This document shows, piece by piece, positions 30,575 through 41,729 of a stretch of DNA of 41,918 nt. This stretch comes from Rhodobacteraceae bacterium (ex Bugula neritina AB1) (GTDB lineage Bacteria > Pseudomonadota > Alphaproteobacteria > Rhodobacterales > Rhodobacteraceae). The stretch's first letter is position 1, and each line of letters begins with the position of its first letter. Both the position numbers and the translations under genes were made by a program. The stretch is taken from NCBI GenBank assembly GCA_001730095.1, contig MDLF01000054.1, forward strand, positions 1 through 41,918, given 5' to 3'. The notes beneath the pieces are model-generated. The model did no database searches. It was not told the DNA's origin and worked only from the letters and a program-made list of their open reading frames with translations.

Positions 30575-32302
30575 GTGAGTTTTACACCCTATGTGTTCGG
30601 CACCGGTATTTCCGGCTGGTCCTTCCTGCAGCGGACCCAGGCCCAGCAGCAGGAAGTCTATGAAAAATCACCTATTCTGGACCGTCAGGTGCAGGATTTC
30701 AAAGAGCGCATCACAAGCATCCAGAGTCCAGAGGAACTGCTGGATGATTACAGCCTACTGCAAGTGACACTGGGCGCCTTTGGCCTGGATGAGGACATCA
30801 ATAACCGCGCCTATATCCAGAAGGTGCTGGAGTCCGACCCAAGTGATTCTGGTTCCTTTGTGAACCGCCTCAACGACAGCCGCTACCTGGCGCTGGCAAC
30901 GACCTTTGGCTTCAACAGCCCGGACGGACCGCAGCTGCCCGGCGCCGGGGCAGGCAGTGAATTTGCGAGTATATCCACGCCGGACGATCTGTTGTCCAAT
31001 TCAACGCTTCTGACCAAGGCGCTGGACAACGTTGGCCTCAAGGGAATGGAAAACAACCAGTTCTTCCTGCAGCAGGTACTGGAGTCTGATCTGAGCGATC
31101 CGGAGTCTTTTGCCAACAAGCTCTCCGACACCCGCATTGCAGATTTCGCCCGTCAGTTCGAATTCAACAAACCGCAGGAATACAACAACAGTATCCAGGC
31201 GCTGGTCACGGAATTCAACCAGCACACAGAGGGTCTGGCCAGCGCCGATGACCTGCTGGAGGACGAGGAGCTGCTGCAGGCGGTGATCGAGACCTTCGAT
31301 CTGGAGCGGACCAGCACGGATTTCCTGCGGCGGGTGCTGAATTCGGACACTACGGATCCTGACTCCTTTGTGAACCAGCTGGAGGATACGCGGTATCTGA
31401 ATGTCTCAAAGGCGTTTGGCTTCGGCTATCCGGATATCAATGCGATGACCGATCCGGATGAGCTGCTGCTGAACCCGGATCTTCTGGCGGATGCATTGGA
31501 CCAGTTCAATGTCAGCGATCGCAGCGAAACCTTCCTGCGGCAAGTGCTGGAATCCGACCTGAGCGACCCGAACTCCTTTGTGAATCAGCCAGAGAACATT
31601 GCCTACTTCGATTTCGCCGAGGCCTTCCAGACCAGCACATGGCCGGAGCATGTCAGCAAGATGCAGGTGTTCTCCGATGAGATCACCGACAAGCTGGACA
31701 GTATGACCCAGGCACAGGATGTGGTTTTGGACCTCAGCCTGTTTGAGGCTTCGTTGGACCTGTTCGGGCTGGGGCACCGGAGCGGCGACTTCAATGTAAT
31801 GACCAAGACGCTGGATTCCGACCTCTCGTCAGAGATTTCTTATGCAAATCTGCACCACGACAACAACATGAAAGCAATGGCTTACGCTTTCTCCTTCAAC
31901 AAGGGGGAAGAAGCAAAGGTGTATCCGGACGGGTTTGCCGAGGAGCTGGCCGATCTCTACACCACCCGCCAATTCGAAATCGAAATCGGAAACTCGGATC
32001 CCAACATGCGGCTGGCGCTGGCGCTGGAACGCGAGCTGCAGTCGGTGGCGGATGAGGGGGGCAGTGAGGATGCGCATTGGTATAACATCATTGGCTCCCA
32101 ACCGTTGCGGACCGTGTTTGAAACCGCATTGGCGCTGCCGTCCACTTTTGCCCAGCTGGATATTGAGCGCCAGCTGGTGGAGCTGCAGGACCGAACGGAA
32201 AGAGCCTTCGGCGTGTCACATCCGGCGGATCTGCTGGAGCCGGATAAGCTTGACGAATTCCGCAGGCGTTTCCTGCTGATGACGGATCTCGGCAGTATCT
32301 GA
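30575..32302 (+). CDS. DUF1217 family protein with five internal repeats
   Basis: The GTG at 30575 is supported by AGGAG (30562-30566); the 575-residue product starts VSFTPYVFGTGISGWSFLQR. Five degenerate units of about 60 residues lie near 52-113, 137-197, 225-283, 294-352 and 381-441. Each has a D-D/E-LL start, a helix ending L(E/N)SD, SFVN-type residues, and a closing aromatic FGF/FEF. The last 110 or so residues (NMRLALALERELQSVADE ... LDEFRRRFLLMTDLG) form the usual DUF1217 C-terminus. DUF1217 genes are often near flagellar clusters in Rhodobacteraceae; none is present here. The protein has no signal peptide or cysteine. The function is unknown. Confidence 0.8.
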   Translation: MSFTPYVFGTGISGWSFLQRTQAQQQEVYEKSPILDRQVQDFKERITSIQSPEELLDDYSLLQVTLGAFGLDEDINNRAYIQKVLESDPSDSGSFVNRLNDSRYLALATTFGFNSPDGPQLPGAGAGSEFASISTPDDLLSNSTLLTKALDNVGLKGMENNQFFLQQVLESDLSDPESFANKLSDTRIADFARQFEFNKPQEYNNSIQALVTEFNQHTEGLASADDLLEDEELLQAVIETFDLERTSTDFLRRVLNSDTTDPDSFVNQLEDTRYLNVSKAFGFGYPDINAMTDPDELLLNPDLLADALDQFNVSDRSETFLRQVLESDLSDPNSFVNQPENIAYFDFAEAFQTSTWPEHVSKMQVFSDEITDKLDSMTQAQDVVLDLSLFEASLDLFGLGHRSGDFNVMTKTLDSDLSSEISYANLHHDNNMKAMAYAFSFNKGEEAKVYPDGFAEELADLYTTRQFEIEIGNSDPNMRLALALERELQSVADEGGSEDAHWYNIIGSQPLRTVFETALALPSTFAQLDIERQLVELQDRTERAFGVSHPADLLEPDKLDEFRRRFLLMTDLGSI

Positions 32303-32587: not shown

Positions 32588-33004
32588 ATGCAATATGACA
32601 CCGGCAGTCACTGCGTTTTCTACCACCGCTTTCATATCGTATGGTCGACCAAATACCGCTACAAAGTGCTGCACGGGGCATTGCGCCTGCGGATGCGCGA
32701 GATCTGCCACCAGGTCTGCGCGGAGAACGGGGGCGCCATCTTACACGAGGTCTTGTCGAGCGACCATGTGCATATGTTCGTGCCTGTGCCGCCGAAACTC
32801 GCCATTTCCGATCTGGTGCGCAAGATGAAGGGCCGTTCGTCTTACCGAGTGCAACGGGAATTCCCCGCGATCCGCAGGCGCTATTGGGGCTGCCGGTTCT
32901 GGGGCCGCGGGTATTTTTCAACCACCAACGGTGCAATCACCGAAGACATCGTACTTCAGTACCTGGAAAATCACATTGCCGATCCTACCGGCGCCAGCCG
33001 GTAG
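32588..33004 (+). CDS. tnpA: IS200/IS605-type Y1 transposase TnpA
   Basis: The 138-residue HUH-type single-strand transposase has the metal-binding HxH pair at His60/His62 (SSDHVHMFV) and a candidate nucleophile Tyr125 (EDIVLQYLENH), both at family positions. The segment FHIVWSTKYRYKVL is the usual N-terminal signature, and RGYFSTTNGAITEDI precedes the tyrosine helix. The length is at or near full size, so the enzyme looks intact. No tnpB or iscB follows, as in IS200-like elements. The element lies about 285 bp beyond the DUF1217 gene in an otherwise gene-free gap. Confidence 0.92.
   Translation: MQYDTGSHCVFYHRFHIVWSTKYRYKVLHGALRLRMREICHQVCAENGGAILHEVLSSDHVHMFVPVPPKLAISDLVRKMKGRSSYRVQREFPAIRRRYWGCRFWGRGYFSTTNGAITEDIVLQYLENHIADPTGASR
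32985..33004. mobile_element. Candidate right-end hairpin of the IS200/IS605 element
   Basis: CTACCGGC-GCCA-GCCGGTAG is a perfect 8-bp stem that ends exactly with the tnpA stop codon. It resembles the left-end hairpin at 32478. The exact cleavage sites were not determined. Confidence 0.5.
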
Positions 33005-33137: not shown

Positions 33138-33953
33138 TCAGACCGCTTCCCGCACCGCGCTCAGGAATTGTTGCGTTCGCTCGCGCTGGGGATTGCCAAA
33201 CAGCTGGGTCGGGGGTCCCTGCTCCTCAATCCGGCCGCCGTAGAAGAAACACACCCGGTCCGAAATATCGCGGGCAAAGCCCATCTGGTGGGTCACCATC
33301 AGCATCGTCAGGTTGTGCTCCGACACCAGCTGGCGGATCACATTGGTGACTTCACCGATCACTTCTGGGTCCAGGGCCGATGTCACCTCGTCAAACAGCA
33401 TCACCTTGGGCCGCATCGCCAGCGCCCGCGCAATGGCAACCCGTTGCTGCTGGCCGCCCGACAGCCGTGACGGGTGCTGATCCTTTTTGGCGATCATGCC
33501 CACCAGTTCCAGCAATTCTTCCGAACGGTCGCGCGCTTCGGCCTTGGGCAGGCCCAGAACCTGCACCGGCCCTTCCATGCAGTTTTCCAGCGCGGTCATA
33601 TGCGGGAACAGGTTGAAGTGCTGGAAACACATGCCAATGTCAGCGCGGCGGCTGCGCAGATGCCGTTCGTTGGCGGACACTAGCTGGCCGCCCCGGGGCA
33701 TATGGGTCAGCGGCTTGCCATCCACATAGATTACCCCGCCGTTGATCCGCTCCAGTGTCATCAGCATCCGCAGCACCGTGGTTTTGCCTGACCCTGACGG
33801 GCCGATGATCGACACCATCTCGCCGGCTGCGACATCCAGGTCCAGATCGTCCAGAACGGTCAGTGCCCCATAGGATTTGTTCACTTTGCGAAAGCTCACC
33901 ATCGGCGTGTCTTCACCGGTGATTTCAAGCGGAAAGCCAGTCTTGTCCAGCAT
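33138..33953 (-). CDS. ehuA: ABC transporter ATPase, ectoine/polar amino acid type (EhuA-like)
   Basis: The 271-residue ATPase carries Walker A (GPSGSGKTT), the Q-loop (CFQHFNLFPHM), the signature LSGGQQQRVAIARAL, Walker B (VMLFDEVTSALDP) and the switch His (MVTHQMGFA). The segment ALENCMEGPVQVLGLPKAEA and the overall pattern fit the polar-amino-acid uptake family, and within it EhuA of the ectoine/hydroxyectoine systems. The substrate assignment rests on resemblance only. The start MLDKTGFPLEIT lies 3 nt after the preceding permease stop. It is the last gene of a seven-gene minus-strand cluster. Confidence 0.75.
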   Translation of the reverse strand: MLDKTGFPLEITGEDTPMVSFRKVNKSYGALTVLDDLDLDVAAGEMVSIIGPSGSGKTTVLRMLMTLERINGGVIYVDGKPLTHMPRGGQLVSANERHLRSRRADIGMCFQHFNLFPHMTALENCMEGPVQVLGLPKAEARDRSEELLELVGMIAKKDQHPSRLSGGQQQRVAIARALAMRPKVMLFDEVTSALDPEVIGEVTNVIRQLVSEHNLTMLMVTHQMGFARDISDRVCFFYGGRIEEQGPPTQLFGNPQRERTQQFLSAVREAV

Positions 33954-33955
33954 CG

Positions 33956-34621
33956 TTACAGTCCCAGTTTGCGGCGCACATACCCTTCGAACAGCCGGAT
34001 CAGGCCCGCTGCCGGCAGGGATATTGCCAGAAAGATGATGCCAACCATCGTATAGGGTTCCAGGAACCGGTAGTTCTCGGATCCGATGGCGTTGGCGGTA
34101 TGAATGAGCTCGGCCACCCCGATCACCGATAGCATCGGGGTGTCCTTGAAGATGCCGACCAGATAGTTGCCCATGCCGGCCAGCGCGGGTGGGATCGCCT
34201 GCGGTATGATCACCCGCCGGTATTTTTGCACCGTGGTCATGTTCAGCGCGATGGCCGCCTCCCACTGGCCTTTCGGCACGCTCTCGATACCGCCGCGGTA
34301 GACCTCCGACAGGTAGCAGGCATAGTGCAGGCCGATGGCGATCATGCCTGACATCCAGGGGCTGAGGCGGATACCGAACTGCGGCCCCACATAGAAGACA
34401 AAGAAGATCTGCAGGATCAGTGGGGTGGAGCGGATGAACTCCACGAATTCCCGCACGGTAAAGGTCACCGCCCGCGACGGCGTGCGTTGCGCCAGTGCCA
34501 GCATCAGCCCCAGAACCACGGCAATCACATAGCCCGCCCCGGCTGCGATCAGCGTGTTGCCGGTAGCAGAGATCAGCCGCGGCAGGATCTCCCAGGTAAA
34601 GTCCCATTTCCAGTCAAACAT
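33956..34621 (-). CDS. ehuD: ABC transporter permease (EhuD-like)
   Basis: This 221-residue inner-membrane protein has about five helices and the HisM-type inner-membrane motif. The EAA loop is QWEAAIALNMTTVQKYRRVI followed by IPQAIPPALAG. The first periplasm-facing region (FIRSTPLILQIFFVFYVG) is typical of polar amino-acid permeases. It sits directly next to a second permease (3 nt apart), implying a heterodimeric channel. Ehu identity is by resemblance and gene order. Confidence 0.75.
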   Translation of the reverse strand: MFDWKWDFTWEILPRLISATGNTLIAAGAGYVIAVVLGLMLALAQRTPSRAVTFTVREFVEFIRSTPLILQIFFVFYVGPQFGIRLSPWMSGMIAIGLHYACYLSEVYRGGIESVPKGQWEAAIALNMTTVQKYRRVIIPQAIPPALAGMGNYLVGIFKDTPMLSVIGVAELIHTANAIGSENYRFLEPYTMVGIIFLAISLPAAGLIRLFEGYVRRKLGL

Positions 34622-34624
34622 GAC

Positions 34625-35290
34625 TCAGGCTCTCCCCAGTTTGCGCGCCATATGGCGTTCCAGCCAGCGCATGAACGGCGTCACCAGAAAGCGGGCCAGG
34701 ACATAGTAGATCACCAGTGCCGCGCCAAAGACCTGCGCCGACAGGAAGGTGGAGGCATTGATCTGCCGCGCCTCGAACATCAGGTCGGCGACCGAGATTA
34801 GCGACACTAGCGCGGTGCCTTTGAGCAGCTCGATCATCAGGTTGCCCCAGGGCGGCAGCATGCTGACCAGCGCCTGCGGCAGGATGATCCGCCGCATGCG
34901 CTGCGCCGGGCTCATGTTGATCGCCAGCGCCGCTTCCCATTGCCCCTTGGGCACTGATAGGATGCCACCGCGCACCAGCTCGGCGCCGTAAGCGCCGATG
35001 TTCATGCCGACAGCCAGATATCCTGCGGTGAATTTTTCAATCGTCAGACCGAACAGCGGCAGCACGAAGAAAATCCAGTACAGCTGCACCACCAGCGAGG
35101 TGCCGCGGAAAATCTCGATGTAAGTCACCGCCGCGCCGCGCATAAGCGCGTTCTGCGACAGTTTCATCAAGCCCATGCAGAGCGAGATCGCGATTCCAAT
35201 CACCGCAGCGAGCAGGAATTGGGCCAAGGTGACGCCCGTCCCTGTCAGAAGCCGCGGCCAGTACTGGATCAGGAAATCATAGAAACCCAT
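34625..35290 (-). CDS. ehuC: ABC transporter permease (EhuC-like)
   Basis: The 221-residue permease starts MGFYDFLIQYWPRLLTGTGV. It has the family segment FRGTSLVVQLYWIFFVLPLF and the EAA loop QWEAALAINMSPAQRMRRII followed by LPQALVSMLPP. The start at 35290 was chosen because the 19 earlier residues of the open frame are not family-like. It forms a pair with the neighbouring EhuD-like permease. It follows the binding-protein gene by 66 nt. Confidence 0.75.
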   Translation of the reverse strand: MGFYDFLIQYWPRLLTGTGVTLAQFLLAAVIGIAISLCMGLMKLSQNALMRGAAVTYIEIFRGTSLVVQLYWIFFVLPLFGLTIEKFTAGYLAVGMNIGAYGAELVRGGILSVPKGQWEAALAINMSPAQRMRRIILPQALVSMLPPWGNLMIELLKGTALVSLISVADLMFEARQINASTFLSAQVFGAALVIYYVLARFLVTPFMRWLERHMARKLGRA

Positions 35291-35356
35291 CAGTAATCCG
35301 TATGGCACGAGGAGATTTGCATGTGGCGAACCGCAGGGGCCCGCCACACATTCGGA

Positions 35357-36199
35357 TCAGCGGTTGGCACAGGTCCATTCGGTGGTCTTGTCACCGGGCA
35401 GGGTGCTTTCGGTGTAGCCGTATTTTGCGACCGTCTGCATCATTTCCTCAGAGCCGATGTATTCTGCCAGCGCTGTGTTGAACTCAGCCAGGAAAGCGCT
35501 GTCAGCGTCGCGGAAGCCGATGCCGACCCAGTTCAGCGTCCATTCCGGCAGGGCGCTGGGGTCGGTCACGTCGACGGCCTCATCGCTTTCCGCCAGATGC
35601 GCCGCTTCGAAATAGGTCATGCCCGCAGCATCTGCGCGGCCTGCCTTAACTGCGGCCAGCATCTCGGTCGGGCCCGGCACCTGCATGATCGTCGCGTCGG
35701 TCAGCCCTTCCTTCTTGGCGGCTTCGACGGTGTTGTAACCGGAACCTGCAGCCAGTACCGCTTCTGCAGCCAGAATGTCCTGATAGGTCTGGATGCCCTT
35801 GGGATTGCCGGCCGGAACGATAAAGGCGTCGCCGGACTGGGCAATCGGCTCGGAGAAGGAGATATTCTCGCAGCGGCTGTTGAGGATATAAAGCCCGCCA
35901 GTGATCATGTCATAGCGGTTGGCCTGTAGCCCCGGGATCAGCCCACCCCAGTCGGTTACGGTCGCCTCGACGCTTTCGTGGCCCATTTTTTTCAAGATAT
36001 CGATGGCGATCTCATTCACAAAGCCCTTGGCGTCGCCATTTTCGTCAGGGTAGCCCCAGATCGGAATGTTGGAAAAGCCGATGCGGAGCGGCTCGCCGGC
36101 GGCGATGCGGTCATCAATTGGCCCGGCCAGCGCCGCAATCGAGCTGACCACGGTTGCAACTGCCGGTGCGCCCAGAGTGTTGAGTAGTTTGTAAGTCAT
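35357..36199 (-). CDS. ehuB: ABC transporter periplasmic substrate-binding protein (EhuB-like)
   Basis: The ATG at 36199 has a strong GGGAGGAAACC ahead of it. The 280-residue protein has a signal peptide (LLNTLGAPAVATVVSSIAAL, ending ALA|GP) and a family-3 bilobed binding fold. Diagnostic parts include GEPLRIGFSNIPIWGYPDEN, GGLIPGLQANRYDMITGGLY, and the ending LPGDKTTEWTCANR, close to the end of known EhuB proteins. In EhuB the ligand pocket is built from aromatic residues for cationic osmolytes. Here IPIWGY replaces the usual VPYGY-like segment, so the ligand may differ. Confidence 0.78.
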   Translation of the reverse strand: MTYKLLNTLGAPAVATVVSSIAALAGPIDDRIAAGEPLRIGFSNIPIWGYPDENGDAKGFVNEIAIDILKKMGHESVEATVTDWGGLIPGLQANRYDMITGGLYILNSRCENISFSEPIAQSGDAFIVPAGNPKGIQTYQDILAAEAVLAAGSGYNTVEAAKKEGLTDATIMQVPGPTEMLAAVKAGRADAAGMTYFEAAHLAESDEAVDVTDPSALPEWTLNWVGIGFRDADSAFLAEFNTALAEYIGSEEMMQTVAKYGYTESTLPGDKTTEWTCANR

Positions 36200-36363
36200 G
36201 GTTTCCTCCCAGAATTTGACCTGTCTTCGATTTGGAATTCGCGCCTGTTGTTTGGTTTGGGCGGCGTCTCCATTGCCACGGTCCTGAGCTTGGGCCGGTG
36301 ATGAGAGCGGGACACCGGGGATGTGCATCAGGACCGTGAACTCCTCCTTGGTGCCAGGCGCCC

Positions 36364-38820
36364 TCAGGCGCTGGACAGCATCCGTTTGCTTTGCGGGTCA
36401 TAGAACGGGGTCAGGCTGACATCCGCCTCGATGCTTTTGCCCTCCACCAGGACTGTGAACCGGCCGTTCTCAACCGCTGTCTTGTCTGTTTCGCCTTCGG
36501 GCAGGGTCAGCAGGCACAGGCCGACAGCTGCCCCGACGGTTTGGCCCCAGGCGCCGGCTGTCACATAGCCCGCGATCTTGCCGTCCCGCAGGACGGGTTC
36601 GTTGTGATGCAGCAGCGGTTCCGGGTCGCACAGCTTGATCGAGCACAGGAACGGCCCCTTGTTTTCCGCCTTGCGCGCCAGATAGGCGTCGCGGCCGATA
36701 AATGGGATGGGCTTCTTTGTCTTGCAGACAAATTCCATGCCCATCTGGTGCGGCGCCTCGGTGTAGGCCATGTCGTGGCCCCAGTGGACAAAGCCCTTTT
36801 CCAGCCGCAGCGCATTCAGCGCCTCGCCGCCGATCAGTTTCAGGCCGAACTCTTCGCCCGCCTGCATGAGCACCTCGAACACGTGCTCGGCGAAATCCGG
36901 GGTGATGAAAATCTCCCAGCCCAATTCACCGGAATAGGACAGCCGCTGCGCAAACACTGGCGCGTGGCCGATATGGAAATGCTGCAGGCTGTTGAACGGA
37001 AAACCCGCGTTCGAGACATCCGCATCGCTGACGGCCTGCAACAGCGCACGGCTTTTGGGCCCCATGATCCCCAGCACGCCATAGGCGGTTGTCGCATCGC
37101 GCAGCCGCACGTCCTCATCATCGCGGATCAGATCGCGCAAATGCAGATAGTCGCGCCTTGTGTGCGAGATTGAGCTCATCACCATGAAACTGTCGTCGCC
37201 ATGACGCGCCACTGTGACGTCGCTTTCGATGCCGCCGCGGTCGTTCAGCATCAGCGTATAGGCAACCCGGCCATTGGCCATCGCCATATTGTTGGTGCAG
37301 ACCCGCTGCAGAAAGCTTTCGGCATCCTTGCCCACGACCATCAGCTTGCCCAGCATCGAATAGTCGATCATCGCAACCGCTTCGCGGGCGGCCTTTTGCT
37401 CTTCCTGCACATAGGGGAACCAGTTCTGGCGACCAAAACTGTATTCATACTTCGGCTCCACCCCTTCGGGTGCAAACCAGCCGGGGCGTTCCCAGCCCTG
37501 GGCCTCGGTGAAACAGGCGCCGCGGGCCTTCATGGGGTGGTAGAACGGGGTGCGGCGCAGGTTGCGGACGGTTTCGCGCTGGCGGTTCGGCCAATGCATC
37601 GCATAGGTCAGCACCAGCGTTTCCGGGCAGCGTTCCTGCAGATAGGGATCGCGCGCCTGGAACTCCTCGCAGCGCTTGGGGTCCATTTCGCTGAGGTCAA
37701 TCGGCGGATGGCCGTCGATGATCCATTGCGCCAGGGCCCGGCCCGCGCCGCTGCCTGACTGGATGCCGGTGGAATTCACCCCGCCCAGAACAAAGTAATT
37801 GGCGATATCCGGCGCCTGTCCCAGAATGAACCGCCCGTCATAGGAATAACTCTCTGGCCCGTTAAAGAAGGTGCGGATGCCGGTTTCCTGCAAGAGCGGC
37901 ACCCGGTTCATTGCCAGTTCCAGCACCTCCATCACATCGTCTTCGACAAACGGCAGGCTGTCGAATTCAAAGTCCTCGGAAATGCCTTTCATACCCCAGG
38001 GTTTGGCTTGAAAATGAGCAAAGCCGAACAGCAGCTTGCCTGCGTCTTCCTTCCAATAGGTGCCATCGCAATAGGACCGCAGCACCGGCAGGTCGCTGGG
38101 CAGGTTCTCGATCGCTTCGGTCACCAGATAGTAATGCTCGCAGGCATGCAACGGCACCCCGACCCCGTTCTGGCGGCCCAGTTCGCGCGCCCACATGCCG
38201 CCGCAGTTCACCACGTAATCGGCGCTGATGGTGCCCTGATCGGTGCGCACGCCCACCGCCTTGGTGCCGCGGGTCAGCACCTCTTCGACCTTGATGTTTT
38301 CAAATATCTTCGCGCCGCGCATCCGTGCGCCTTTGGCCAGCGCCGTGGTCAGATCCACCGGGTTGGCAGAGCCATCGCTGGGCAGGTAGATGCCGCCCAG
38401 CACGCCATCCGGGTTCATCAGCGGCCAGCGCTCCTGAATTTCTGCGGTTTCCAGATACTGCGCTTCAATCCCGAACAGCGCCGCAAAGTCGGCCTTGCGC
38501 TTCAGCTCGGCCATGCGTTCATCATTGACCGCAACCGAGATGGACCCCGACCGCCGGTAGCCCGGATTTTGCCCGGTCTCCGCCTCGATCTCCTCCAGCA
38601 GCTCAATGCCGTATTTGGCAAAGGCGGTGGTGGCATGGCTGCCCTGCAGCTGCCCCACAAGGCCGGCCGCGTGCCAGGTGGTGCCGCTGGTCAGCTGCTT
38701 GCGCTCCAGCAGCACAACATCGGTCAGGCCCTGTTTGGCCAGATGATAGGCCACCGAGCAGCCGTGAATGCCGCCGCCGATGATGACAACCTGCGCGTGG
38801 GACGGGAGTTGCTTGGTCAT
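36364..38820 (-). CDS. FAD-dependent dimethylglycine/sarcosine dehydrogenase-like enzyme
   Basis: The 818-residue protein has an N-terminal DAO-type FAD domain (GGGIHGCSVAYHLAK at 15-29; about 1-400) and a C-terminal GcvT-like tetrahydrofolate-binding domain (about 440-810). His50 in TSGTTWHAAGL matches the position of covalent FAD attachment in dimethylglycine dehydrogenase. The GcvT part includes MIDYSMLGKLMVVGKDAESF, LSYSGELGWEIF and ALNALRLEKGFVHWGHDM. Such enzymes remove N-methyl groups oxidatively and pass the carbon to folate. The true amine here is unknown. The length is normal for the family. It lies 19 nt after the M24 gene. Confidence 0.88.
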   Translation of the reverse strand: MTKQLPSHAQVVIIGGGIHGCSVAYHLAKQGLTDVVLLERKQLTSGTTWHAAGLVGQLQGSHATTAFAKYGIELLEEIEAETGQNPGYRRSGSISVAVNDERMAELKRKADFAALFGIEAQYLETAEIQERWPLMNPDGVLGGIYLPSDGSANPVDLTTALAKGARMRGAKIFENIKVEEVLTRGTKAVGVRTDQGTISADYVVNCGGMWARELGRQNGVGVPLHACEHYYLVTEAIENLPSDLPVLRSYCDGTYWKEDAGKLLFGFAHFQAKPWGMKGISEDFEFDSLPFVEDDVMEVLELAMNRVPLLQETGIRTFFNGPESYSYDGRFILGQAPDIANYFVLGGVNSTGIQSGSGAGRALAQWIIDGHPPIDLSEMDPKRCEEFQARDPYLQERCPETLVLTYAMHWPNRQRETVRNLRRTPFYHPMKARGACFTEAQGWERPGWFAPEGVEPKYEYSFGRQNWFPYVQEEQKAAREAVAMIDYSMLGKLMVVGKDAESFLQRVCTNNMAMANGRVAYTLMLNDRGGIESDVTVARHGDDSFMVMSSISHTRRDYLHLRDLIRDDEDVRLRDATTAYGVLGIMGPKSRALLQAVSDADVSNAGFPFNSLQHFHIGHAPVFAQRLSYSGELGWEIFITPDFAEHVFEVLMQAGEEFGLKLIGGEALNALRLEKGFVHWGHDMAYTEAPHQMGMEFVCKTKKPIPFIGRDAYLARKAENKGPFLCSIKLCDPEPLLHHNEPVLRDGKIAGYVTAGAWGQTVGAAVGLCLLTLPEGETDKTAVENGRFTVLVEGKSIEADVSLTPFYDPQSKRMLSSA

Positions 38821-38838
38821 TCTGGTGATATCCGTGGC

Positions 38839-40020
38839 TTATGTGATGATCGGAAGCTCGCGCGCGGCGCGGCGCGACAACAGTTCGGCGCCATCCTCGT
38901 GGATGACGATGTTTTCTTCGTGCAGCATCATCTTGTTGCCGCCAAAGGCGAAGCCGGGTTCAAGCGTCAGCACCATGCCGGCCTCAATCACGGTATTGTC
39001 GCCGGGCATAAGCGAGGGCCATTCGGTCACCTGCATCCCCAGCCCGTGCCCCATGCGGCCGATCTGATGGCCGCTGTCGCCGCCGTCCTCCAGCACCTTG
39101 GCCATGACGCCCCACAGGTCCGTGGTGGTGATGCCGGGACGTGCCGCCTGCAATCCGGCCTCAGTTGCGCGCCAGGCCAAATCATAGGCCTGTTTGGCTG
39201 CGTCCGAGGCATGGCCAAATGCATAGTTGCGGTCGAAATCGCAGCTATAGCCGCCCCACAGCGAACCGGTGTCCAACAGCAGCATATCGCCGTCTGCGAT
39301 CACCCGGTCGGTGGGGCGGTTGATCACATCCGAGAACCCGCCAGGGCCGGAACTGCCAACCAGATACGGCACGTCATCGGCGCCTTGCTGCAGCAGATTG
39401 ATCTTGAACTTGGCAAAGGCCTGGCGTTCGGTGTCGCCTGCGTTGATAAAATTCGGCAGATCCTCAAACGCAGAAGACGCGATGCTGCAAATGCGCGCAA
39501 TCTTGGCGATCTCAGAGTTGGATTTCACCATCCGCAGGCGGCGCACAACATCGGTACCGTCGGCCATGGTTATACTGTCCAGCCTGCCTTGCAGTTTCTG
39601 AAAATCAGCCGCAGGCATCCGCACGTGGGTTTCATGGCCCATCGGCAGACCCAGTGTTCCGCCGCCCGGCATCACCTCGCGCAGAGTGTCCGCCAGCAGG
39701 GAAATGCCGTCGTCCTCAGGGTGCGGAGCCAGCCAGGTGCGAATATCGGATATCCAGGTCAGCGACATGCTGGGCCCGCCGATTTCCGGGATCACAGCAA
39801 TGGGCGCGCCACTGGCCGGGATCACCACAAACCAGGGCCGCGTCGGGCTGAGCCAGAAAACCGTGTCAAATCCGGTAAAATACCGCACTTCCGGTTCGGT
39901 GGTCAGCAGCAGCGCATCCAGACCGAGGTCGGCCATGATTTTCTGGGCGGCTTGCGTGCGCTGTTCAAATTCAGCTGTTGAGAACCCGCGCTCTGCGGTG
40001 GGGTGCATGCCCATCTTCAT
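38839..40020 (-). CDS. M24 family metallopeptidase-like hydrolase (Xaa-Pro peptidase/ectoine hydrolase fold)
   Basis: The 393-residue protein has a creatinase-type N-terminal domain (FEQRTQAAQKIMADLGLDAL ... YFTGFDTVFW) and a pita-bread catalytic domain. All five metal ligands appear present: the Asp residues in LLLDTGSLW and CDFDRNYAF, His in RMGHGLGMQ, Glu in TLEPGFAF and Glu in HEENIVI. This argues against creatinase, which lacks metals. The fold is shared by Xaa-Pro peptidases and ectoine hydrolase (EutD/DoeA). The substrate is not settled. The start MKMGMHPTAERGFS at 40020 leaves 1 nt after the racemase-like gene stop. Confidence 0.82.
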   Translation of the reverse strand: MKMGMHPTAERGFSTAEFEQRTQAAQKIMADLGLDALLLTTEPEVRYFTGFDTVFWLSPTRPWFVVIPASGAPIAVIPEIGGPSMSLTWISDIRTWLAPHPEDDGISLLADTLREVMPGGGTLGLPMGHETHVRMPAADFQKLQGRLDSITMADGTDVVRRLRMVKSNSEIAKIARICSIASSAFEDLPNFINAGDTERQAFAKFKINLLQQGADDVPYLVGSSGPGGFSDVINRPTDRVIADGDMLLLDTGSLWGGYSCDFDRNYAFGHASDAAKQAYDLAWRATEAGLQAARPGITTTDLWGVMAKVLEDGGDSGHQIGRMGHGLGMQVTEWPSLMPGDNTVIEAGMVLTLEPGFAFGGNKMMLHEENIVIHEDGAELLSRRAARELPIIT

Positions 40021-40021
40021 C

Positions 40022-40804
40022 CTAGTTTTCCGCCCTCAGCTGGGTGTGAAACAGCATGCCCGCCCCGGCAATATTGTCGCCGACGCCGGCCAGCCGGGCC
40101 AGATGCCAGGCGGTGACCTGGTTGCTGGACAGGACCGGTTTGCAAATTGCCTTCTCGGCCTCGGCAATGACCTCCATGACCCGCAGGCTGGTGCAGGACA
40201 CGAACACCCCATCGCAATCCGTCCGCTGGCCGATGTCCTTGACCGCCGCCAGAATGCTTTCGGGGGAAATCCGGGCGACCTTGAAATCATCCGATTGGTT
40301 GAAAGTTCCCACCGCAGTCACCTCGAACCCGGCCGCAGCCAGATTGTCCCGCAATTCAGTGGTCACCTCGGCGGCATAAGGCGTGATGAGCGCAATCTTC
40401 CTGAGCTTCAGCGCCTTCAGCGCGGCTTTGCAGGCGGTCAGCGGGTTGGTGGTTTTGGCATTCGGATGCTCCTTACGCAGGAGTTCATCGACACGGGCTT
40501 CACCGATCAGCGTCGCGCCCGAGGTGCAGCAATAGCCAATCGAATCCAACCCAAAGGTCGCGGGCAGAAGGGCAGCGGCGGCCGGAAGATCGGCCTCCAT
40601 TTTCTGCAGGGTGCTGCAGGTAACATTCATCTCGTTCGGGATGCGGGCATGGTACAGAGCAACCCCGTTGCGGCGCAGAACCCTGGCAAACTCATGCTCA
40701 ATGGTCTGATCCGACTGCAGCACAATCAACCCGATCTTGGCCTTTTCACCCAGGCCGCCATCTGCTGTGAACCCCAGTGTCTGAATATCCGGCATCACGC
40801 TCAT
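40022..40804 (-). CDS. Asp/Glu racemase superfamily protein (EutA/maleate isomerase/arylmalonate decarboxylase-like)
   Basis: The 260-residue protein has two Rossmann-like lobes. Each carries a catalytic-type cysteine: SIGYCCTSGATLIGE (Cys92/93) and DGVFVSCTSLRVME (Cys204). This two-Cys arrangement is that of maleate isomerase, arylmalonate decarboxylase and the EutA protein of ectoine-utilisation operons. PNEMNVT and NPLTACKAALKALK are further family segments. It is the first gene of the cluster, starting 103 nt from the double operator. The reaction could be isomerisation, racemisation or decarboxylation. Confidence 0.8.
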   Translation of the reverse strand: MSVMPDIQTLGFTADGGLGEKAKIGLIVLQSDQTIEHEFARVLRRNGVALYHARIPNEMNVTCSTLQKMEADLPAAAALLPATFGLDSIGYCCTSGATLIGEARVDELLRKEHPNAKTTNPLTACKAALKALKLRKIALITPYAAEVTTELRDNLAAAGFEVTAVGTFNQSDDFKVARISPESILAAVKDIGQRTDCDGVFVSCTSLRVMEVIAEAEKAICKPVLSSNQVTAWHLARLAGVGDNIAGAGMLFHTQLRAEN

Positions 40805-40905
40805 AAACCTGTCTCCAGAAATCGGGCTTCAGCCCTTTCCCCCTGATCCATCGCCTTGCATTCCATGGACACTCCATGCAGTCAGAAGATGAAACTTTCG
40901 CTTGC

Positions 40906-40935
40906 TGGTATATACCAATGTCCTGGTATATACCA
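40906..40935. promoter_or_regulatory. Double palindromic operator in the divergent promoter region
   Basis: TGGTATATACCA occurs twice, at 40906-40917 and 40924-40935, each a perfect 12-bp palindrome, 18 bp apart centre to centre. On the minus strand TTGGTA (40936-40931) and TATATA (40914-40909) are spaced by 16 bp like a -35/-10 pair. The plus strand has the mirror arrangement. GT-TATA-AC-type palindromes are typical of HutC/GntR operators. Confidence 0.75.
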
Positions 40936-40961
40936 AGATAAAAGTCGTGGGAACTGAACAT

Positions 40962-41729
40962 ATGGGCGCAAATGATCTGACCTCAGAAAAGAAAATGACT
41001 GCCTTTCAGAAGGTTATCGATCACCTGCGAGATCAGATCCGCAGCGGAAAGCTGCCTGAGCACGCCGCCTTGCCCTCGGAAAGAGCGATCGGAGAGCACT
41101 TCGGCATCAGCAGGATGACCGCCCGCCGCGCACTTTTGGCAGTTGAACAGGAAGGTCTCGCCTACAGCTCAGGGCGTCGGGGGCGATTCGTCTCTCCGCA
41201 GAGGCTGACCTACGACATCAGCAAGACGGTCAGCTTTTTCGCCCATGCCGAAAGCGGCGAACTTGGCTTGAAGATCGAACTGATCTCAAAGCAGATCATC
41301 CAGGCCGACGCCGCCCTGGCGGCGAAGCTTGCAGTGGCCGAGGGCGACACCCTTTACAAGTACACACGGCTGTTTCTGCTCAAGGGGCATCCTGCCTTTG
41401 TAGAAGAGGAATTTGCTGTCGCGCATCTGTTTCCGGATCTTTTCAGCCATGATCTGCAGCAATCAACAACACTGCTTATGGAGCGGGAATACGGTATGCC
41501 GCCTCATTCCGGCGACATTGCCATTCGTATGCGCGCATTGAATGAGGAGGAGGCAGGATTGCTCGGGTTGCCGACCTATAATGCAGGAATAGAATTGGAG
41601 CAGGTGATCTTCGACGCGGGTGGCCGGCCGTTCTGCTTTGGCCGTCAAATCTGGCGCGGCGAACTGGCCGAATTCACCGCCCACGCAATCCTGCGGAACC
41701 GCCGTTCTCCGACCCCAGGCAAGGTTTAG
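40962..41729 (+). CDS. GntR family regulator with UTRA domain (HutC subfamily)
   Basis: The 255-residue protein has a GntR winged helix (about 15-80; LRDQIRSGKLPEHAALPSER, AIGEHFGISRMTARRALLAV). A UTRA ligand domain follows (TVSFFAHAESGELGLKIELI ... VAEGDTLYKYTRLFLLKGHP ... EEEFAVAHLFPDL). HutC-type repressors release DNA when the pathway substrate or an intermediate binds. It is divergent from the transporter/enzyme cluster with two palindromic operators between, so it very probably controls that cluster and itself. The start at 40962 is the first ATG after the operators; an ATG at 40995 is an alternative. Confidence 0.9.
   Translation: MGANDLTSEKKMTAFQKVIDHLRDQIRSGKLPEHAALPSERAIGEHFGISRMTARRALLAVEQEGLAYSSGRRGRFVSPQRLTYDISKTVSFFAHAESGELGLKIELISKQIIQADAALAAKLAVAEGDTLYKYTRLFLLKGHPAFVEEEFAVAHLFPDLFSHDLQQSTTLLMEREYGMPPHSGDIAIRMRALNEEEAGLLGLPTYNAGIELEQVIFDAGGRPFCFGRQIWRGELAEFTAHAILRNRRSPTPGKV

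Follow-up and report, generated by a model that had tools for sequence, protein, structure and literature searches.

Which nutrient is handled by a locus where an ectoine-type importer stands beside a folate-linked demethylase, an M24 hydrolase and a racemase-like enzyme? The question is raised by an operon at 33138-40804 on the minus strand of contig MDLF01000054.1 of Rhodobacteraceae bacterium (ex Bugula neritina AB1). The window analyzed here is this entire contig (C54; 41,918 bp, from a source genome of 4.67 Mb), so the sequence past 41918 cannot be read. We consider it probable that the locus is an inducible single-locus operon which catabolises a chiral N-methylated, betaine-like amino-acid derivative. 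The operon is real, conserved and dedicated, and belongs, as a variant, to the osmolyte-catabolic loci of ectoine/betaine type. Judged by family scores and pocket residues, the cluster is not the ectoine pathway but a related, distinct route.

Gene layout, conservation and the paired palindrome

The seven tightly spaced minus-strand genes and the diverging plus-strand GntR/UTRA gene, described earlier in a sequence-only reading of the window, are all present. The features and the profiles or comparisons behind them are as follows.

40022..40804, minus strand: EutA-like enzyme of the Asp/Glu-racemase superfamily, 260 aa, predicted two-cysteine racemase/epimerase (TIGR02990, Pfam Amdase)
38839..40020, minus strand: M24 hydrolase of creatinase/prolidase fold, 393 aa (Pfam M24 and Creatinase_N)
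36364..38820, minus strand: dimethylglycine-dehydrogenase (DMGDH)-type flavoprotein with folate-binding GcvT domain, 818 aa (DAO, FAO_M, GCV_T, GCV_T_C)
35357..36199, minus strand: EhuB-like periplasmic substrate-binding protein (TIGR02995, Foldseek, pocket comparison)
34625..35347, minus strand: EhuC-like permease (TIGR03004)
33956..34621, minus strand: EhuD-like permease (TIGR03003)
33138..33953, minus strand: EhuA-like ATPase (TIGR03005)
40962..41729, plus strand: GntR/UTRA (HutC-type) regulator, presumed repressor (Pfam GntR and UTRA)
40906..40917, no strand: putative operator copy 1, TGGTATATACCA (palindrome and conservation searches)
40924..40935, no strand: putative operator copy 2, TGGTATATACCA (same searches)

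The EutA-like and M24 genes are separated by 1 bp, the M24 and demethylase genes by 18 bp, and the transporter genes by at most 9 bp, provided that the first permease starts at GTG 35347; its start is either this GTG or a later ATG. Gene starts were chosen by us (ATPase ATG 33953, regulator ATG 40962, binding protein ATG 36199). The regulator start was set at ATG 40962 because TTG 40902 would overlap both operator copies. For the binding protein ATG 36199 is probably the start, as a signal-peptide-like stretch begins there, and it leaves 164 bp to the demethylase gene; the open reading frame (ORF) extends to 36328, where a longer start is also preceded by a purine-rich stretch. Past the ATPase gene, an IS200/IS605-type transposase ORF (32588-33004, named by eye) lies between the cluster and the preceding genes.

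An alignment of five demethylase sequences was scanned over genome contigs, and 441 stretches were matched, giving 419 relatives of which the best 80 were kept. Locus counts below cover these best 80 of 419; several are Leisingera and not independent, and 31 of the 80 are under 16 kb. Partner genes were sought within about 10 kb by mechanical gene calls and identity cut-offs of our own setting. An EutA-like gene was found in 59 loci, GntR in 45, M24 in 43 and Ehu genes in 27. None of 19 control stretches around other DMGDH paralogues carried any listed partner gene at the same cut-offs (11 from the clade at 48-52% identity in other genomes and 8 own-genome regions, about 8 kb on each side, two of them shortened). 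With flanks of 10 kb one control (contig C58, DMGDH at 31480) would count as positive, as one end of an EutA/M24 module is 8.2 kb from this paralogue. Since EutA-like, M24 and GntR genes recur in 59, 43 and 45 of the 80 loci and in 0 of 19 controls, the arrangement is not a chance one. The layout and its conservation are direct observations, as are the shared palindrome, the pocket changes and the conserved catalytic-type residues given below.

Identity to the window demethylase is 62-95% in 78 of the 80 loci and 50% in two, the next clade being at 48-52%. The closest protein in named genomes is that of Leisingera aquimarina (95%), and the clade takes in Leisingera, Ruegeria, Roseovarius, SAR116, Granulosicoccaceae and Halieaceae. 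Close orthologues (at least 75% identity) occur in 6 of 295 family genomes, and the next clade, at 52%, is clearly set apart from them.

The best NCBIfam match of the regulator is PhnR at 137.1 bits (cut-off 296.75), which gives it no named equivalog. Two copies of the 12-bp palindrome TGGTATATACCA occur in the window, each in the interval that separates the EutA-like gene from the GntR gene, and the core of the palindrome lies 5' of the GntR gene in 49 of 49 related loci that retain this gene (45 of the best 80 together with L048, L049, L052 and L053; 47 of the 49 are distinct, L048 and L052 being duplicates of L105 and L081). The background of the core GTATATAC is 75 in 1,358,944 bp overall, or 0.02 per 360 bp. 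In six whole genomes TGGTMTAKACCA has 11 matches at the demethylase locus, to which it is confined in the window genome and four of the five others; the sole match elsewhere is G184:C1:3848829-3848840 (L203). The looser form TGGTNTANACCA has 82 sites in 47 of the 80 loci: for 73 of them at least one of the two flanking genes was called as GntR, EutA-like or PhyH, 8 are flanked by no called gene, and 1 (L107) is elsewhere. Given the palindrome 5' of GntR and its confinement, loci that have the regulator each resemble a self-contained regulon. The paired TGGTATATACCA, as putative operator of a GntR/UTRA protein, is new here. PhyH, ProVWX, M20 and diaminopropionate ammonia-lyase genes are, by gene order, tied to the predicted regulon where they run from the same divergent promoter.

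Binding pocket, enzymes and substrate class

Three of the four importer subunits score above the Ehu cut-offs, namely the ATPase (400.1 bits, cut-off 345.4), the EhuC-like permease (245.1 bits, cut-off 196.95) and the EhuD-like permease (273.2 bits, cut-off 205.2), and the binding protein falls narrowly under that of EhuB (183.3 bits, cut-off 190.9). Its top Foldseek match is 2q88, the EhuB-ectoine structure. In a genome search for EhuB-like proteins it was the sole strong match (183.5 bits; runner-up 26.5).

For the pocket comparison we took Glu21, Phe24, Tyr60, Phe80 and Arg85 as the EhuB ligand contacts reported with its structure, and assumed the role of Glu21; the residue letters of 2q88 fit this list at a single offset. 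Across 31 cluster binding proteins (30 distinct), Glu21 is replaced by Ile or Val in all, position 24 is Trp in 29 and Phe in 2, Tyr60 has become Trp and Phe80 has become Tyr in all, and Arg85 is always kept. The residue set for ectoine binding has thus lost Glu21, the other four positions being aromatic or Arg. Four of five Ehu-like proteins from four other loci keep Glu21 and one has Ala. Cation-pi contacts underlie ectoine binding by EhuB, according to the portion of PMC2871039 at hand. A cage and an arginine that are kept, with an acid that is lost, suggest a methylated ammonium, a cation that has no N-H donors; it would present methyl groups instead of N-H because the acidic residue is replaced by Ile or Val. 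Genes labelled as 'ectoine' permeases in such loci, for example on the Roseovarius pelagicus plasmid, may be misnamed.

The importer could instead serve ectoine or hydroxyectoine and feed the eut genes on contig C12 of the same genome, with the window enzymes auxiliary, for example in inversion of hydroxyectoine by the EutA-like enzyme. The three subunits above cut-off and the genome's only strong EhuB-like match favor this explanation. Contig C12 also carries EutD/DoeA (818.7 bits, cut-off 613) and EutB (555.1 bits, cut-off 413.35) in a row with EutC-like, EutE-like and aminotransferase genes (these three named by eye), and in the 20 kb of it viewed by eye no importer was recognised except a lone family-3-like binding-protein ORF (L182 18137-18970). 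In addition, no EutA above the cut-off of 318 was found anywhere in the window genome. Against it stand the EhuB-like score under cut-off and the replacement of Glu21 in all 31 proteins but in one of five from other loci. The regulator matches the MocR-type EnuR/EhuR family NF052286 in the DNA-binding part only (27.6 against 480 bits), and the operator pattern was not found at C12. The ectoine route, as far as the consulted part of PMC5924519 describes it, has no step for a demethylase. EutB, EutC and EutE/DoeB are lacking among the operon genes, the EutA-like protein reaches 185.4 bits against TIGR02990 (cut-off 318) and the M24 protein 61.7 bits against EutD/DoeA (cut-off 613). We regard the ectoine explanation as unlikely.

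The sequence-only reading had already set ectoine breakdown aside, and this stands: the EutA-like and M24 scores are far below cut-offs and the real DoeA and EutB are on C12. It had also said that ectoine genes lying elsewhere would turn the cluster into a variant of the known pathway. Such genes do lie elsewhere, to the letter; they do not make the cluster an ectoine variant because its proteins are not orthologues of EutA and EutD. A side role of the importer in ectoine uptake may exist, as no protein outside it matches EhuB strongly in this genome.

The demethylase has the full DMGDH architecture (DAO, FAO_M, GCV_T and GCV_T_C), and its best solved relatives are the dimethylglycine dehydrogenases 4pab (448 bits), 4p9s and 5l46 and the dimethylglycine oxidase 1pj5. 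H50 is found in 83 of 83 proteins read and H229 and Y255 in 86 of 86, all aligned with 4pab/1pj5; we take H50 as the flavin-linking His and H229/Y255 as the catalytic His and Tyr. These relatives, together with ProVWX importers at some loci, would fit plain catabolism of glycine betaine, dimethylglycine or sarcosine in an unusual neighbourhood. Glycine derivatives are, however, achiral and amide-free, which leaves the racemase and the M24 enzyme unexplained, the genome encodes nine full-length DMGDH-type paralogues besides this one, and the close orthologues are restricted to the few family genomes counted above; we hold this explanation very unlikely. The nine paralogues lie on contigs C101, C48, C58, C76, C74, C63 and C34.

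The M24 protein, with a mean predicted local distance difference test (pLDDT) of 88 for its predicted fold, has the dipeptidase PepE (4ege, 27% identity) as its best solved relative by sequence and by fold; Foldseek puts 4ege first and the best creatinase 14th. PepE and the prolidases are closer to it than DoeA or creatinase. D250, D261, H325, E354 and E368, presumably the M24 metal ligands, are kept in 49 of 49 cluster members. Creatinase is metal-free, and creatinase identity was ruled out by these positions and by the scores (43.7 bits, against 136.1 for PepE). A creatine-type guanidino compound, with the M24 enzyme as creatinase and the flavoprotein as sarcosine demethylase, could draw on the shared creatinase fold and on ureohydrolase-like genes diverging from the cluster in 2 of 80 loci. 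The same scores and metal-ligand positions speak against it, and sarcosine requires no racemase, so that this substrate is hardly credible. The ureohydrolase-like genes, named by eye, belong to two unrelated lineages (L116 8130-9134 and L131 6465-7460).

The closest solved structure to the EutA-like protein is the maleate cis-trans isomerase 4fq7. Aligned with it, Cys93 is present in 63 of 63 cluster proteins read and Cys204 in 64 of 64 aligned, which we assume to be the catalytic pair of the two-cysteine Asp/Glu racemase/maleate isomerase superfamily. In trees the labels 'with demethylase' and 'without' are clustered, with 2 changes for M24 and 3 for the EutA-like protein. The demethylase side of the latter tree also takes in four proteins from demethylase-free loci. 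Long branches (L138, L062, L110) make the deep nodes uncertain, and a substrate cannot be deduced from these trees.

On these observations we infer co-transcription, repression, each reaction, the reaction order and the substrate class. The GntR/UTRA protein would repress both directions at the paired palindrome, and binding of the nutrient, or of one of its breakdown products, to the UTRA domain would end this repression. The EhuBCDA-like importer would then take up a compact zwitterion, its cation held in a Trp/Trp/Tyr cage and its carboxylate by the conserved arginine. The EutA-like enzyme may invert the stereocentre by two-cysteine acid/base chemistry, the DMGDH-like flavoprotein would strip N-methyl groups and hand them to tetrahydrofolate, and the metal-type M24 enzyme would hydrolyse an amide or amidine bond. 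In those relatives that have a PhyH or Rieske oxygenase, this enzyme plausibly removes the first methyl from a quaternary ammonium; in some, the M20 enzyme and the diaminopropionate ammonia-lyase may complete the route.

The earlier proposal of an N-methylated substrate gains from the demethylase, the altered pocket and the betaine-type importers and demethylation-type oxygenases of relatives. As a whole, that interpretation keeps its non-ectoine and N-methylated parts; its amide-containing part, for which this operon offers the M24 fold, is tentative. Its term 'undescribed' was not contradicted: no description of the cluster was met in the titles and abstract openings of the matches listed for homarine, glycine betaine and ectoine. 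This comparison took in PMC2871039, PMC5924519, PMC9732360, PMC12478193 and PMC4744692, each in part. A link to homarine was weighed and set aside because no evidence spoke for it.

Variation among relatives and a possible 2,3-diaminopropionate end point

Other partners vary among the 80 loci. PhyH genes of two subfamilies occur in 28 and 8 loci and Rieske genes in 4, a PhyH or Rieske oxygenase being present in 36. Creatinase-like M24b genes were found in 15 loci, the diaminopropionate ammonia-lyase in 14, Lrp in 13, M20 in 10, cupin in 8, ProVWX in 7-8, CysK-like in 6, MFS in 4, ureohydrolase in 2 and BCCT in 1. The main layouts, with the divergent promoter written as <>, are as follows.

Window: GntR <> EutA-M24-DMGDH-EhuBCDA
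ProVWX type: ProV-ProW-ProX-M24-GntR <> PhyH-EutA-DMGDH
Lyase type: M24-lyase-M20-GntR <> EutA-DMGDH
Luminiphilus/Hellea: MFS-PhyH-M20-lyase-EutA-M24-DMGDH
Roseovarius pelagicus plasmid (annotated): lyase layout, then EhuBCDA, then a second M24/arylmalonate-decarboxylase/SoxB cluster

The M20 and lyase genes of some relatives suggest 2,3-diaminopropionate as an end point, and are not proof of it. In a bolder form, a marine pathway with its own repressor and operator would act on an N-methylated (in some lineages quaternary) 2,3-diaminopropionate derivative, acylated or cyclic, such as a three-carbon counterpart of ectoine or an amino acid of the beta-N-methylamino-L-alanine (BMAA) type. The operon would be its upper half and M20 with the lyase its lower half, in the order importer, epimerase, folate-linked demethylase, metal amidase, M20 deacylase and lyase, with pyruvate and ammonia as end products. 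M20 is near the cluster in 10 and the lyase in 14 of the 80 loci at an identity of at least 55% (17 and 20 of 86 by looser clustering), and at several loci they form one row with GntR. Of 295 family genomes, 22 have an orthologue of the window genome's lyase (at least 60% identity). These are 4 of the 6 genomes that carry the demethylase, one of them the window genome, and 18 of the remaining 289 (Fisher p 0.0003, a value that ignores relatedness); if the window genome is left out, the overlap is 3 of 5. This lyase resembles the E. coli-type enzyme 4d9g and keeps K77, D120 and D189 in the alignment, whose numbering and roles in the E. coli enzyme we assume. Against this end point, 66 of the 80 loci are without a lyase at 55% identity, the window genome's own lyase module, on contig C58, has no operator pattern and includes separate M24 and EutA-like paralogues, and G075 and G187, both among the six genomes with the demethylase, have no lyase at E 1e-100. 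For these reasons it is kept as a bold reading only, and we find it doubtful, both as a pathway and in its proposed substrates. Published use of BMAA by diaminopropionate ammonia-lyase was sought, and none was found among the matches listed, as far as their visible text goes.

The C58 module (L065 5444-9769) holds M20 amidohydrolase, diaminopropionate ammonia-lyase, M24 and EutA-like genes. Modules of this type also occur in the family genomes of L059-L061, L063, L064, L066 and L067, sometimes with M20 or lyase uncalled, often with a divergent Lrp gene and without an adjoining orthologue of the window demethylase.

Several observations weigh against the explanation that we favor or against its uniformity among the loci. 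The reversed TGGTMTAKACCA control matched at 4 places in the six genomes (G270 1, G075 1, G187 2). The TGGTNTANACCA palindrome is absent from 33 of the 80 loci, including SAR116 and Luminiphilus, and 17 of these 33 still carry an EutA-like gene. Neither the EutA-like nor the M24 gene was found at the cut-offs in 15 of the 80 loci, 7 of them on stretches longer than 16 kb; one of the 15, L085, has an EutA-like gene from another cluster. The G075 locus has the demethylase, M24 and GntR genes, with no EutA-like gene reaching the cut-off. An oxygenase of the PhyH or Rieske type accompanies 6 of the 27 Ehu-type loci against 30 of the 53 others, and in the window genome no PhyH (best 24% identity) and no close Rieske gene (best 36%) was found, so the first step of the relatives is absent or different here. 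The EutA-like enzyme belongs to no curated equivalog, and its racemase role therefore comes from its superfamily only; the role of Glu21 in EhuB is assumed. The variety of partner genes could reflect substrates that differ from lineage to lineage.

Some related arrangements were also observed. In Leisingera and Roseovarius pelagicus the Ehu genes are directly followed by a second cluster (L068 15817-20049; L186 13355-16445) of LysR, creatinase-like M24, EutA/arylmalonate-decarboxylase-like and SoxB genes, with SoxA also in Leisingera; the window has the IS200-like transposase ORF at this place. A 20 kb stretch from a genome of the same family (G033; L054 1-19901) carries three EutA-like, three PhyH-like and three M24-like genes with a DMGDH-type, an M20-like and a threonine-dehydratase-like gene, several of them named by eye. 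In L050, L051, L056, L057 and L058 an EutA-like module stands without the demethylase, the EutA-like gene adjoining a cystathionine-beta-lyase-like pyridoxal phosphate enzyme and/or an ArgE/DapE-type M20-like gene.

Comparison with known systems

Marine algae release many methylated nitrogen compounds for which we know of no bacterial degradation route. The spread of the demethylase clade and the palindrome in 47 of 80 loci make this locus a compact handle (one binding protein, one regulator and one operon) for finding such a compound.

The named ectoine and hydroxyectoine uptake and catabolism systems are ehuABCD-eutABCDE of Sinorhizobium meliloti and ueh-eut of Ruegeria pomeroyi (PMC5924519, in the part consulted). 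The operon shares with them an EhuABCD-type importer, enzymes of the EutA and M24 superfamilies and a regulator of the GntR superfamily. It differs in having no EutB, EutC or EutE/DoeB, in EutA-like and M24 proteins far under the cut-offs, in a UTRA-type instead of MocR-type regulator, in the added folate-linked demethylase and in a pocket without Glu21.

With the dimethylglycine dehydrogenases and oxidase (4pab, 5l46, 1pj5) the window demethylase shares the domain order and the positions of the flavin histidine and the catalytic His and Tyr, but it falls in its own clade and is linked in many loci to a racemase-like gene, an M24 gene and a regulator of its own. The M24 protein shares its fold with prolidase/PepE and creatinase and its metal ligands with the prolidases; the cluster proteins form their own clades in the tree and stand in a catabolic genomic setting. 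The second cluster of Leisingera and Roseovarius follows the same logic as the operon, an M24 and an EutA-like enzyme with an N-demethylating flavoprotein; it differs in its LysR regulator, its other M24 subfamily and its sarcosine-oxidase-type enzyme, and it is found in these relatives and not in the window.

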